Below, piece after piece: positions 530 to 3,869 of a DNA stretch of 36,225 nt (its first letter is position 1; each line of letters opens with the position of its first letter). Below the pieces are notes generated by a model that searched no databases, was not told the DNA's origin, and saw only the letters and a list, made by a program, of their open reading frames with translations. A program made the translations under genes and the position numbers. Source of the stretch: a virus. Where the stretch lies: positions 1 to 36,225 of IMG/VR virus record IMGVR_UViG_3300037827_000332; one strand, given 5' to 3'.

Positions 530-788
530 CTTTTCTTTCCATAATACTTTTAATATTATCTCTCATTTTAATATGGTCATAAATTTCAAGCGGAGTTATT
601 TCTAATATTTTGGAAAGTTTTATAATATTGTTTAAAAATAAATTATGCATGACATCCATCATGATATTAAATTTATCAATATTGGTTATTTCTTTTTGTA
701 AAAGTTGAATTTTGAATTCTGCATTCAAATATTCACATATATTTTGCAAAATTTCTATTCCGATTTCCGTTCGTCTATCTGTTTCCAT
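519..788 (-). CDS. Small alpha-helical protein, unknown
   Basis: An 89-residue protein with a GGAGCGAC ribosome site ahead of the ATG at 788. Its start overlaps the last 14 bases of csrA, so the two are probably translationally coupled. The sequence is mostly amphipathic helix (for example [19 protein letters not shown], then [19 protein letters not shown]) and rich in Ile and Met, with no cysteine pairs or membrane span. The coupling hints at a role tied to CsrA, for instance as a partner, but that is inference only. Confidence 0.75.
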
Positions 789-963
789 CTTTGTCGCTCC
801 TTTCCCTTATTATCTTTTCATGTATTTCCTGACGATTAACCGGAACATCTTTTGGCGCATTAACTCCAATTTTGACTTGATTCCCTTTAATTCCAAGAAT
901 AATAACTTCTATATCATCACCTATTACCATTAACTCACCAACCCTGCGAGACAAAACAAGCAT
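775..963 (-). CDS. csrA: CsrA/RsmA-type RNA-binding translational regulator
   Basis: A 62-residue CsrA, the usual length for the family. CsrA dimers bind GGA motifs in hairpin loops, often over ribosome sites, and so repress, activate or stabilise mRNAs. The hallmark N-terminus [10 protein letters not shown] is intact (L4, R6, R7, E10), as is the conserved core [13 protein letters not shown], and the RNA-contacting R44 and E46 are present in VNRQEI. I start at 963 rather than 978 because MLVLSRR is the conserved start and GGAG lies 9 bases upstream. The 3' end of the tRNA-like RNA (991) is 28 bases upstream. The phage version could reprogram host carbon, virulence or motility regulation or act on phage transcripts; its own site contains GGA, as in autoregulated csrA genes. 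Confidence 0.96.
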
Positions 964-990
964 GTTCAATTTCTCCATAAATTTAAAAAT

Positions 991-1147
991 TGGTGAATCT
1001 CGGCAAGAGTCGAACTTGCTAAGCTGCTTTCATTCTCAGTAAATCTGACGCGTAAGCCAGAACATTTAAAAAGGCAGAGACTTCCTTTCACTTGTCTAGT
1101 ATGTCACCCAGTGACTAGCGCGTTTCACCGTGAACGCCACGAGATTC
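991..1147 (-). ncRNA. Oversized tRNA-like RNA 1 (8-bp acceptor, encoded CCA, no normal anticodon arm)
   Basis: Read leftward from 1147, the ends pair perfectly over 8 bp (GAATCTCG 1147-1140 with CGAGATTC 1002-995), followed by ACCA at 994-991. A D-arm follows the 5' strand (GCGTT 1137-1133, loop CACGGTGA, AACGC 1124-1120). A canonical T-arm precedes the 3' strand (GCAAG 1019-1015, loop TTCGACT, CTTGC 1007-1003). Between D- and T-arms lie 100 nt instead of the usual 22-42. They can form CTAGT/ACTAG with an inner GTCAC/GTGAC, then AAAGG/CCTTT, then TCAG/CTGA. A second copy lies at 2884-3024. No standard 7-nt anticodon loop is visible. It occupies a GC-rich island between csrA and the DUF669-like gene. 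Function unknown. Confidence 0.82.
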
Positions 1148-1152
1148 AAATA

Positions 1153-1590
1153 TTAAAACGCTATATCATCTAAATTATCGTTGATATCATTAATTATTTT
1201 CTTACTATCATCTTGCTTTAAAAAATCATAAACACAATTTTTATCAGGATATGCGCCAGTTTTGTCTTTCTGGATTCCTATTGCGATTCGACCGTATCGT
1301 CCGGCGCATTCAAAGCTATTCAATTTTCCGCTTTCGTATGATTTTTCAAGACCTACAGCATAACAAAAATGCTTTATCTTTGATTCGCAAAATACATTGT
1401 CATTAAAGATAAGATATTCAAAAATATTTCCTTTATTGTTTTCGCAATCATAGCATTCTAATAAAAGCTTAATCATCTCATCGCCATTTTTTGATTTCGC
1501 TTCAACTGCTGATAGTACTGTAAACGTTCCTTCTCCCTTTTTTAAAAGGGTGCATAATTCTTCATCGCTCTTTGGTTTGAAACTTGGCAT
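1153..1590 (-). CDS. DUF669-like protein, probable ssDNA-binding partner of the Sak4-like ATPase
   Basis: A 145-residue protein starting at an ATG behind GGGGAA, 2 bases after the stop of the ATPase gene. It begins with a Pro-Ser-Phe-Lys-Pro segment, then VLSAVEAKSKNGDEMIKLLL (a beta strand with a Lys-Asn-Gly turn) and LNSFECAGRYGRIAIGIQKD, followed by an acidic, Asp-rich tail (residues 125-145). In many phages a DUF669 protein of this shape follows a Sak4/AAA_24 ATPase and is thought to act as a single-strand DNA-binding protein; the acidic tail fits that role. The assignment rests on motif pattern and neighbourhood, so the family is likely and the activity is inferred. Confidence 0.7.
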   Translation of the reverse strand: MPSFKPKSDEELCTLLKKGEGTFTVLSAVEAKSKNGDEMIKLLLECYDCENNKGNIFEYLIFNDNVFCESKIKHFCYAVGLEKSYESGKLNSFECAGRYGRIAIGIQKDKTGAYPDKNCVYDFLKQDDSKKIINDINDNLDDIAF

Positions 1591-1592
1591 TA

Positions 1593-2438
1593 CTATTCCC
1601 CTTTAACTTGTGATTTAAGATGGTCTATAACTTTTTGAATATGATCTGACTTCATTTCATCAAATGTTTCTGAGTCTGAATTTTTTAACCATTTTTCTAT
1701 TGTTTCTTCAGTAATTTTTAATAACTCAATAAGCCTGTTTAATTCCTTTAATTGATCTGTATTCGCTAAAACCTCAACTTCGGCTGATTTTTCAAGTATT
1801 TCTTTTCCATAACGCTTTGCAATCTCCGCATAAGAAAATGGGAAAGTTTCATTATCAAGGAATGCTTCGACGCGAGTCTTTTTAACCACGCCAACCCTGT
1901 CTTTTCCTCTCTTTTGAATCTCAAAAACTACATCGAATAAATAATCAAGCTTTTTATAACAATCAAATGTCTGTCCGATTAATGTCATCCCTGCGCCGTA
2001 TTCATTTTTAGCATGAGAAGTAATGATAACGTTCATATCAAGTCTTAATAACATGTTGATCATGTGCTTTATATGCTTGTTGGCTTCACTGTAGTGACGT
2101 CCAAATTCTGACCCCACCTTCTTTTCAGCCTTATCAAGAAGGTTTGAATACGGCACTGTAAGAGGGTCAACAATAAGGGTTTTATAGTCATGCTTTTCTG
2201 TTAGTAATGACCGTATTTCAGCCATCATTTCATCAAAATCAGATGTTTGAAATATTGCGCCACCAGATGATTCAAGATGTTTTACATATTGATCGTTTTC
2301 TGCTCCGCGCTCACTATCAATCAGATAAGGTTTTGGGAACTGAATTGCTGCTGTAGTTTTACCTACCCCTGCTGCGCCATAAAAGAAAGCTTTCAATCTC
2401 TTTTGAACGCTTTCTGGTTTTTTTCCTCTCAACGCCAC
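1593..2438 (-). CDS. Sak4-like RecA-fold ATPase (AAA_24), phage recombination/replication
   Basis: A 281-residue P-loop ATPase. Walker A is GAAGVGKTT at residues 21-29, Walker B is TLIVD at 87-91, and a polar strand NVIITSH follows at 136-142, the order seen in phage RecA-like single-strand annealing proteins of the Sak4 type. These bind single-stranded DNA and promote annealing with an SSB partner, here probably the gene immediately downstream. I start at GTG 2438 because AGGAGA lies just upstream and homologues begin near the Lys-Lys-Pro-Glu region; a TTG at 2459 would add 7 residues that overlap the ribosome site. The C-terminal 70 residues are helical and charged. Confidence 0.85.
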   Translation of the reverse strand: MALRGKKPESVQKRLKAFFYGAAGVGKTTAAIQFPKPYLIDSERGAENDQYVKHLESSGGAIFQTSDFDEMMAEIRSLLTEKHDYKTLIVDPLTVPYSNLLDKAEKKVGSEFGRHYSEANKHIKHMINMLLRLDMNVIITSHAKNEYGAGMTLIGQTFDCYKKLDYLFDVVFEIQKRGKDRVGVVKKTRVEAFLDNETFPFSYAEIAKRYGKEILEKSAEVEVLANTDQLKELNRLIELLKITEETIEKWLKNSDSETFDEMKSDHIQKVIDHLKSQVKGE

Positions 2439-2448
2439 AGTATATCTC

Positions 2449-2628
2449 CTAATTTCCAAAAACGACTAATTCTGTTTTATATATTTCTTTATTGATTGTT
2501 GATAAATGATCAACAGCCTTTGCTCTTTCAGCATGAAGACTATCAAGAGTTTGCATCCAATGATGCTTAATTATTTCTTTTTGATTTTTTCTATAAATTT
2601 CGTTAATTTTTTCAAATAAACCTTTCAT
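2449..2628 (-). CDS. Small basic helical protein, unknown
   Basis: A 59-residue protein that starts at ATG 2628 behind AGGAGA, giving MKGLFEKINEIYRKNQKEII. It is rich in Lys, His and Glu and predicted to be mainly helical. A longer reading from 2652 lacks a ribosome site. The gene sits directly before the Sak4-like ATPase in the leftward unit, so a role in DNA handling is possible but not shown. Confidence 0.7.
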   Translation of the reverse strand: MKGLFEKINEIYRKNQKEIIKHHWMQTLDSLHAERAKAVDHLSTINKEIYKTELVVFGN

Positions 2629-2638
2629 AAAAAATCTC

Positions 2639-2860
2639 CTATTCAGGATCAAAAGAAAAAGCGTTTTTGCAGATTTCGTCGATTGATTCTTTTATTCCTA
2701 TAGAAGACTGACTCTTAAACTTAATAATATTCACAATTTGTCCATCTCCTCCTTTTCCAGCTCCTTCAGATATATACTCAACATTAGAAAGATTTATTAA
2801 AGTTTTAAGAGTTTCTGTATCTCCCGGATTACAAATATTAACTATCACAAATTTATCCAC
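2639..2860 (-). CDS. Unknown 73-residue protein
   Basis: It starts at GTG 2860 behind AGGAGAG, about 20 bases after the end of tRNA-like RNA 2. The sequence MDKFVIVNICNPGDTETLKT suggests an alternating beta-alpha fold, with a Gly-rich turn (SEGAGKGGDGQ, residues 31-41) and an acidic end. I do not recognise a family. It fits the operon spacing well. Confidence 0.7.
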   Translation of the reverse strand: MDKFVIVNICNPGDTETLKTLINLSNVEYISEGAGKGGDGQIVNIIKFKSQSSIGIKESIDEICKNAFSFDPE

Positions 2861-2883
2861 ATTTACTCTCCTGTTTAAAAAAG

Positions 2884-3024
2884 TGATTCATGGTCGGAAT
2901 TGCACCGACTCTTACGTTTAACCATACGAGAGGGTATAAATCCTCTGTTAAATACAGTCGCGACAAATGGCCGATAAGGTAAGTCCTTCGCGGCAAGCGT
3001 TTCACTGTCAACGCCGCATGAATC
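2884..3024 (-). ncRNA. Oversized tRNA-like RNA 2
   Basis: Read leftward from 3024: GATTCATG (3024-3017) pairs with CATGAATC (2892-2885), a perfect 8 bp, with discriminator A at 2884. The D-arm is GCGTT 3014-3010, loop GACAGTGA, AACGC 3001-2997, identical to RNA 1 at all stem bases and differing at 2 loop bases. The T-arm is GTCGG 2909-2905, loop TGCAATT, CCGAC 2897-2893. The 87-nt insert can form GCCG/CGGC around AGG/CCT, then a long hairpin TTTAAC-AGAGG/CCTCT-GTTAAA. CCA is not encoded: the end reads ACTTTTTT, which with the acceptor helix looks like an intrinsic terminator. The stems differ in sequence from RNA 1 but keep the pairing, which supports a real RNA family. Confidence 0.78.
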
Positions 3025-3031
3025 ATAAACA

Positions 3032-3131
3032 GACGGTTTCGCGACAGACTACCGTCAAAGTCTAAGCAGTGGGCAGCTAGTTTTCCCCATCGCTTCGGTT
3101 TATATGTGCGCCTACCGATCAAGGCGTAAAA
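3032..3131 (-). ncRNA. Structured GC-rich segment upstream of tRNA-like RNA 2, with hairpin element A
   Basis: Between the gene ending at 3138 and RNA 2 lie about 100 GC-rich bases. Leftward they can form GCC/GGC around the loop TTGATCGGTA (which resembles a D-loop), then AAGC-TGGG paired with CCCA-GCTT, then a 6-bp hairpin GACGGT-(13 nt)-ACCGTC at 3056-3032. This last hairpin recurs at 3383-3359. A weak 5-bp terminator-like hairpin with a T-run (3152-3128) precedes it. An ORF of 89 codons crosses this segment and RNA 2, but its Arg/Leu/His-rich translation looks non-coding. It may be an independent RNA or the 5' part of one transcript with RNA 2. Confidence 0.6.
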
Positions 3132-3137
3132 ACGGTA

Positions 3138-3326
3138 TCACTCAGAAACCGTCACATTCTCTTCTGAAGCTATATTTTCTTTAGGATTGTAATCATAATT
3201 TCCACTTTGAATATTTCTTATAAGCGTATCGATAAGATCGGTTTTTCCAACCGTTTGTTGCGTGAAGTCAATAGTCTCTTTCTTTGCCTGAATCAATGTT
3301 TGTAAAAATATATTTTTGTCTAACAC
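3138..3326 (-). CDS. Unknown 62-residue acidic protein
   Basis: It starts at GTG 3326 with GGAG about 9 bases upstream. The first half is helical (MLDKNIFLQTLIQAKKETID), and the end is acidic and low in hydrophobics (ENIASEENVTVSE). No family recognised. It lies between two structured intergenic segments (3032-3131 and 3359-3422), which is unusual in this otherwise tightly packed operon. Confidence 0.65.
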   Translation of the reverse strand: MLDKNIFLQTLIQAKKETIDFTQQTVGKTDLIDTLIRNIQSGNYDYNPKENIASEENVTVSE

Positions 3327-3358
3327 TTTTAAATCTCCAATAGTAATAAAAGTCAGTT

Positions 3359-3422
3359 GCCAGTTTCGCAGAAAACTACTGGCGAAGTTCCAATGTAGGA
3401 CGTTATGAGCCGCCCCATCTGC
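3359..3422 (-). ncRNA. Intergenic RNA structure with hairpin element B
   Basis: Directly after the stop of the 154-codon ORF, the leftward transcript has GGGGCG paired with CGTCCT (two G-U pairs, 8-nt loop), then the hairpin GCCAGT-AGTTTTCTGCGAA-ACTGGC (3383-3359). Its 6-bp stem has different bases from element A, yet the 13-nt loop is the same length and shares AGT at the start and GCGAA at the end. A motif AAGC-(A)GATGGGG also precedes both copies. It may be a leader or protein-binding site for the next gene. Confidence 0.6.
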
Positions 3423-3869
3423 TTAGGCCTCGAAGTAATCAGAATGTCCATATTGCATTTGTTCTTGATGAAAATCCGCTTTTTCTTGTTCAATCTTTTG
3501 CTCAAATTCATTTTTATAATATAAATATATATTTTCTTGAATTTGACACATTGCTTTTTGTATTGCTATTACTCTGCTGAAATCATCTTTTGCTAAAATA
3601 GAGTCGGCGATATGATCAAGCAAATTTCCATTGTCGTCTTTGTATGTTATTGAGTCCCAGTCATATCGCCCAGCGCCCTGTCTTTCGTCTCTTGAATTTA
3701 TTTTTAAATTGTAAGCACCGTACTCTTTTATTTTATTTTTCTTTTTATATTCTATGTCATTATTTTTATCATTATTGTATTCAGAAATTATTTCATCTCT
3801 TGCGTAGTCTCTTAAGACGTCACTTAAAATCTGTTCTAAGGTTACTGAACCTAAGTATTTGTAATCCAT
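3423..3869 (-). CDS. First gene of leftward unit, unknown charged protein
   Basis: A 148-residue protein if started at ATG 3869 (MDYKYLGSVTLEQ), which has GAGG 5 bases upstream. A TTG at 3887 would add 6 residues but has no ribosome site. The protein is rich in Asp, Lys, Asn and Tyr, with a central Arg-Asp-Glu-Arg-Gln-Gly-Ala-Gly-Arg stretch and a helical, Gln/Glu-rich C-terminus. It is the first gene behind the strong promoter at 3933-3961 and so should be expressed earliest. I do not recognise the family; early takeover functions are often encoded at this place. Confidence 0.75.
   Translation of the reverse strand: MDYKYLGSVTLEQILSDVLRDYARDEIISEYNNDKNNDIEYKKKNKIKEYGAYNLKINSRDERQGAGRYDWDSITYKDDNGNLLDHIADSILAKDDFSRVIAIQKAMCQIQENIYLYYKNEFEQKIEQEKADFHQEQMQYGHSDYFEA

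Follow-up and report, generated by a model that had tools for sequence, protein, structure and literature searches.

The window analysed here spans 36,225 nucleotides, a 36-kb virus record of IMG/VR whose genes include those for terminase, portal and head. Two RNA elements, RNA I and RNA II, lie on its minus strand in the company of three protein-coding genes (Table 1). A preliminary description had presented them as tRNA-like RNAs with perfect 8-bp acceptors, and this holds in full: acceptor, D and T stems are completely paired in both copies, each of which combines an acceptor of 8 bp with two linker bases, a D-arm (5-bp stem, 8-nt loop), a T-arm and an A at the discriminator position. As also noted there, the letters of the acceptor and T-stem differ between the copies while pairing is kept, a pattern confirmed by covariation across the family, and CCA is encoded in RNA II only, the discriminator A of RNA I being followed by CTTTTTT. 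In the RNA I insert, reading by eye gave candidate crossing helices, CGCGA/TCGCG and CTTAC/GTAAG.

Table 1. Features of the RNA-bearing part of the window; R1 scores of the two RNAs are raised by construction, because both copies are among the 49 training sequences of the model
Feature	Position	Strand	Basis or remarks
csrA-like gene, directly downstream of RNA II	775..978	minus	PHROG 9500 and Pfam CsrA; like arrangement in locus L236
RNA II, type II tRNA-shell RNA	991..1147	minus	R1 61.3 bits, E=8.3e-15 over 994-1147 (raised by training); 5'->3' GAATCTCG-TG-GCGTT-CACGGTGA-AACGC-[100 nt]-GCAAG-TTCGACT-CTTGC-CGAGATTC-A-CCA; A73 = 994, CCA = 993-991
RNA II acceptor 3' strand CGAGATTC	995..1002	minus	
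RNA II T-arm GCAAG-TTCGACT-CTTGC	1003..1019	minus	
RNA II hypervariable insert, 100 nt	1020..1119	minus	
RNA II D-arm GCGTT-CACGGTGA-AACGC	1120..1137	minus	
RNA II acceptor 5' strand GAATCTCG	1140..1147	minus	partner = 995-1002
Gene of the phrog_2698 protein (145 aa), next upstream of RNA II	1153..1590	minus	
Sak4-like ssDNA annealing protein gene, between RNA I and RNA II	1593..2459	minus	PHROG 124 E=4e-24, Pfam AAA_24
RNA I, type I tRNA-shell RNA (141 nt with the discriminator A counted)	2884..3024	minus	R1 73.7 bits, E=3.7e-18 (raised by training); 5'->3' GATTCATG-CG-GCGTT-GACAGTGA-AACGC-[87 nt]-GTCGG-TGCAATT-CCGAC-CATGAATC-A
RNA I acceptor 3' strand CATGAATC	2885..2892	minus	then discriminator A at 2884, CTTTTTT
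RNA I T-arm GTCGG-TGCAATT-CCGAC	2893..2909	minus	sequence and family covariation
RNA I hypervariable insert, 87 nt, where anticodon arm and variable loop would be	2910..2996	minus	
RNA I D-arm GCGTT-GACAGTGA-AACGC	2997..3014	minus	5 covarying D-stem pairs family-wide
RNA I acceptor 5' strand GATTCATG	3017..3024	minus	partner = 2885-2892; 8 covarying acceptor pairs family-wide

Three further stretches of the window were recorded. A structured RNA candidate on the minus strand at 3034-3152, with a perfect 9-bp terminal stem (GACGGTTTC/GAAACCGTC) and z = -3.6, has neither an Rfam match nor a T-arm, and lies like an array neighbour of RNA I, whose 5' end follows after about 9 nt. The GC-rich intergenic segment at 3340-3440 (minus) holds a hairpin, GCCAGT/ACTGGC, and folds no better than shuffles (z = -0.8), while a short imperfect C/G-rich repeat (gaccccgac...) at 1-86 opens the contig.

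An RNA family with a covarying tRNA shell

Relatives were sought in IMG/VR with a degenerate D-arm pattern, followed by stricter D-arm patterns, two T-arm patterns and a descriptor; a broad scan with the type II pattern gave mostly chance matches. Contigs with the D-arm pattern have a T-arm 29-254 nt downstream, together with the exact complement of the preceding acceptor. About 143 members were recovered in phage contigs, versus none in reversed-sequence controls. In alignment A1 of 49 sequences, from which the covariance model R1 was derived, 99.2% of cells are paired versus 73.5% in shuffles (0/500 shuffles), 17 of the 18 pairs show double-sided changes, and the covariation score is 0.688 versus 0.169 in shuffles; across the acceptor stem the sequence varies while pairing is kept.

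Since the descriptor demands pairing and thereby biases selection, we used two less biased tests. Among 85 D-arm-anchored hits with a T-arm, for which acceptor pairing was unselected, 62 pair at 8/8 and 14 at 7/8, versus 3.8% and 6.4%, respectively, in an acceptor-swapped control. Likewise, of 80 loci selected solely for encoding a relative of the window Sak4 protein, 18 contain the RNA (R1, E<=0.01), and again 17 of 18 pairs are changed on both sides, in an alignment that was fitted to R1 and includes a few contigs already known from the earlier searches. Homologues with strong covariation, whose lack would have overturned the initial proposal, thus exist, and the acceptor, D and T arms, along with the D/T-loop elbow, are present in the family. 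It is therefore well supported that both window RNAs belong to a real, undescribed phage RNA family, and equally that its architecture is a constant tRNA shell with a replaced anticodon region.

The elbow and two subtypes

With tRNA numbering assigned by our own reading, the elbow positions are strongly constrained in the 114 distinct cores: 19-56 is G-C in all of them, 18/55 is A/G in 108, G/U in 3 and A/U in 3, and 8-14 is C-G in 109, G-C in 2 and U-G in 2 (together 113/114). In 140 of 143 members an A immediately precedes the T-stem. The elbow contacts thus show as covarying or invariant columns, and two subtypes can be recognized: type I, represented by RNA I, combines the D-loop GACAGTGA with the T-loop TGCAATT, and type II, represented by RNA II, the D-loop CAYGGTGA with the T-loop TTCGAYT. 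The earlier account of the two RNAs as copies has to be amended accordingly: they represent separate subtypes, between which D-loop and T-loop change in concert. The type II loops GGTGA and TTCGACT recall bacterial tRNA-Sec.

T-arm-anchored hits include some phage tRNAs that share the T-loop TGCAATT and an AG-containing D-loop, and at phage tRNA loci such as L271, L410 and L415 the unusual T-loop TGCAAYT is seen together with an AG D-loop. Having G at position 55, these TGCAAYT tRNAs should contain no pseudouridine there, and the combination is possibly a phage-wide elbow variant. The alanine identity element G3:U70 was considered and discarded, G-U being seen at that pair in one of the 114 cores.

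Hypervariable and modular inserts

Inserts range from 29 to 254 nt and 122 of 143 lack a detectable relative; neither window insert has one among the 143, and one phage can carry several RNAs with unrelated inserts, as do the two in the window. Such hypervariability would also follow from a weakly constrained spacer. An enclosing anticodon-arm-like helix is not enriched at the insert ends, and an anticodon arm is thus absent. Of the topologies tested, crossing helices show the strongest enrichment (26 of 109 inserts at P<=0.05, binomial 2e-11), with nested helices below them at 16-17 of 109; this pseudoknot preference is a population-level trend, not established for every member. The replacement of the anticodon arm and variable loop by 87-100 nt, as first proposed, is right in its lengths (87 and 100), but the replacing material is hypervariable and, as a population, pseudoknot-prone rather than plain hairpins. 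Insert MFE z-scores are only modestly below the control (mean -0.55 vs -0.11).

A recurring insert, of the L165 type, was found in six contigs as five distinct sequences with differing acceptors and T-stems; it has crossing helices GCTGA/TCAGC and CCAGT/ACTGG and a variable inner stem. Insert and shell are hence modular, one pseudoknotted insert being seen in shells of differing acceptor and T-stem. In a second insert family (A3) the terminal helix occurs as GGTAG/CTACC and as GGTGC/GCACC, and one hairpin keeps its pairing through a rewritten stem, with a GAAA loop in 4 of 5. The inserts at large are enriched in GAAA and CGAAAG and poor in GGAGG (3 vs 13.6), and antisense matches to the own phage genome do not go beyond chance. 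A few inserts hold a nested T-arm-like hairpin (L198:3055-3250, L522:876-1160, L141, L441). Those of L522 and L198 apparently contain much of a tRNA, and these nested tRNA-like parts recall the tRNAs in the GOLLD linker.

These properties bear on an alternative in which the shell itself is bait, titrating a tRNA-directed host factor (a toxin, an acceptor-end nuclease or nucleotidyltransferase, the CCA enzyme or an elongation factor), while the insert fills space or replaces a cuttable anticodon. Bait would account for a conserved part consisting of the elbow and the 13-bp acceptor/T stack, for the missing anticodon arm and for an elbow that is often A18/G55, a variant occurring in phage tRNAs too. 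Likewise, plant-virus tRNA-like structures combine elbow mimicry with pseudoknots (PMC4810234), although these are 3' ends of RNA virus genomes, in contrast to discrete elements in dsDNA phages. However, inserts of up to 254 nt, the pseudoknot preference, GNRA loops and modules common to different shells are all things that pure bait would not need, and we consider this alternative unlikely.

Genomic neighbourhood and tRNA arrays

Ten of the RNAs have an ARAGORN tRNA within 30 nt, in every case on their own strand (expected 0.67) and at gaps of 1-20 nt; in L198 and L438 the RNA has a tRNA on either side, 2-10 nt away. None of the RNAs overlaps a tRNA call. As judged from position, this tight co-directional placement supports probable RNase P-type processing. 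CCA is encoded in 25 of 48 tRNAs in member loci versus 14 of 143 RNAs at the exact position, and this rarity, along with the varied acceptor sequences, argues against a role in synthetase identity.

No constant protein partner was found among the member neighbourhoods, and the downstream genes are widely varied. The upstream neighbour gene is on the same strand in 108 of 139 cases. In phages resembling the window phage the neighbours are the phrog_2698 protein and Sak4; the former adjoins an RNA in six phages, and its relative in L236 matches single-strand DNA-binding proteins. The csrA neighbourhood mentioned in the preliminary description is borne out for the window, where csrA adjoins RNA II. 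In L236, too, the csrA start codon comes directly after the RNA, whose insert differs, and the type II RNA of L234 has yet another insert ahead of another gene. As csrA is found beside the RNA in few phages only, it is not a general partner. A CsrA sponge was also rejected: csrA is rarely adjacent, the L236 insert is devoid of AGGA (by eye), and GGAG-type motifs are avoided. PADLOC gave no hits on six window ORFs.

Neighbours mostly on one strand (108/139 upstream) and an RNA directly ahead of the csrA start codon in two phages are what one would expect of a punctuation device, i.e. an RNase P/RNase Z cleavage cassette that separates or regulates operon genes such as csrA. We regard this as improbable, given that the downstream genes differ widely, that many members reside in tRNA arrays, and that a cleavage cassette needs no large structured insert.

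Comparison with known RNA classes

Neither window RNA is called by ARAGORN or matched by Rfam 15 (whole window at E<=5, 900-3500 at E<=10), and cmscan of 20 member-holding stretches at E<=2 gave no Rfam match to the RNAs, tRNA and tmRNA included. The GOLLD and ROOL models likewise failed to match in the window and the 20 stretches. A known RNA family, a tRNA or a tRNA with an intron, any of which would have overturned the initial proposal, was not found by these searches, and "tRNA mimic" is upheld as a description, the partners first suggested for it (synthetase, CCA enzyme, EF-Tu, RNase P) and the decoy role being putative. An ordinary tRNA with an intron or a long variable arm could be suspected from the location in tRNA arrays, but ARAGORN calls none of the 143 members as tRNA, the Rfam tRNA model does not match, and an enclosing anticodon-arm-like helix is not enriched; chance hairpins, for their part, conflict with reversed controls of which none pass. 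The probability of either is negligible.

The plan of tmRNA is a tRNA-like domain plus a pseudoknot, and the phage RNAs resemble it in having a tRNA-like domain and a pseudoknot trend where the anticodon arm would be. They could accordingly be imagined as agents that enter ribosomes or bind SmpB/EF-Tu and alter translation during infection. However, tmRNA has a D-loop without a stable D-stem, whereas the phage RNAs have a covarying 5-bp D-stem; they have no conserved insert sequence able to hold a tag ORF or resume codon, mostly do not encode CCA, are unconserved in acceptor sequence, and are less than half the size of tmRNA. The ARAGORN tmRNA search (-m) on member loci and Rfam gave no match, in line with the earlier separation from tmRNA, and we think a tmRNA-like agent very unlikely. 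Bacterial tRNA-Sec shares with the family the 13-bp stack formed by an 8-bp acceptor and a 5-bp T-stem, but the phage RNAs differ in being devoid of an anticodon arm (UCA), in their D-arm and in matching no tRNA-type model.

YrlA is a non-coding RNA of 90-150 nt with D, T and acceptor mimicry (PMC8394870). It has a tRNA-like module and another domain, and joins Rsr and PNPase. By comparison, the phage RNAs might be tethers that bind one protein by the tRNA-like domain and another by the insert. Unlike YrlA, whose 5' and 3' ends form the Rsr-binding stem, their ends form an acceptor; RF02553 has no match in the window at E<=10, and no constant protein neighbour was seen in the comparison of neighbouring proteins as a whole. 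The chance that they are Y-RNA-like tethers is slight indeed. GOLLD and ROOL, structured RNAs of phages and prophages that often adjoin tRNA islands and have no known function (PMC12286853), share with our family the phage context and the proximity to such islands; they are, however, much larger, cage-forming and devoid of a tRNA shell.

In the open literature, the scope of our search, we found neither an earlier description of such RNAs nor any natural class that joins an invariant tRNA shell to a structured insert that varies. By analogy, the phage RNAs would appear to work most like the engineered tRNA scaffold, in which the acceptor, T and D arms with an RNA replacing the anticodon stem-loop are functional (PMC3753655). 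Both keep these arms, and in the family, too, another structured RNA stands in the anticodon arm's place. The engineered shell confers maturation and stability, and we propose the same working principle here. In contrast, the engineered scaffold was made for E. coli on an ordinary tRNA and is not of the same family, whereas the phage RNAs are natural and have an 8-bp acceptor, a 5-bp D-stem, a variant elbow and insert pseudoknots.

A putative natural tRNA scaffold

The reading we prefer, with a probability of roughly 55%, is that of a natural tRNA scaffold that carries a structured, exchangeable effector RNA and is matured by host RNase P, with the insert as its working part. It starts from the observed covarying shell, elbow contacts, insert hypervariability, population-level pseudoknot preference and co-directional tRNA-array placement. 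The constant shell (8-bp acceptor, two linker bases, 5-bp D-arm, 5-bp T-arm and D/T-loop elbow) would close the molecule around a nearly phage-unique insert of 29-254 nt that would tend to a pseudoknot with side hairpins. Host RNase P would cut the RNA from an operon or tRNA-array transcript at the first acceptor base, the 3' end would be trimmed and CCA-finished in tRNA-like fashion, and the shell would thus supply maturation and exonuclease protection. We infer these steps from the engineered tRNA scaffold and from the known role of the tRNA elbow in recognition by RNase P, RNase Z and the CCA enzyme. Least certain is the role of the insert, which might bind a partner that changes fast from one host to the next, a defence or regulatory factor of the host being the most plausible; with reduced confidence, we suggest that the insert changes because its partner does.

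A tentative extension of the scaffold reading is that the tRNA shell may serve as a display frame for evolving and swapping structured RNA inhibitors against fast-changing host defence or regulatory proteins, an RNA counterpart of the antibody scaffold. If true, the scaffold would open a new way of influencing host cells through RNA and offer RNA technology a stable frame that exists already. The family itself would be a large, undescribed one of uncultured phages and, to the extent of our search, the first instance in nature of a tRNA shell that stays constant around a structured, hypervariable insert; it also reveals that phage tRNA arrays hold non-tRNA elements that tRNA finders miss.

Distribution and host

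BLASTN with the window region and core strings gave only chance-level hits in deposited phages and plasmids, and the core motif had no convincing match in 50,697 deposited phage records or 72,556 plasmids. On genomes, R1 had no hit among 398 other Pseudomonadota and one hit each among 142 other Legionellales and 198 other Planctomycetota. The Legionellales hit (L499) is in a complete isolate with a 3.31-Mb single-contig chromosome, within a prophage-like segment encoding a DNA invertase, terminase and portal; there the RNA closely follows the gene for the terminase small subunit and has further phage genes on its other side. Besides many uncultured phages, the carriers thus include at least one phage-like element of an isolated bacterium, and as this isolate is complete and carries the RNA in a prophage-like segment, processing and function are directly testable. 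The terminase large subunit of L499 is 57% identical to that of the window. These findings point to a gammaproteobacterial host of the window phage without proving it. Some records carry several copies, with up to five R1 hits on both strands of one 1.4-kb stretch (L493, the record of L262), and a degenerate GTTGACAGTGAA element is seen near L493:1155.
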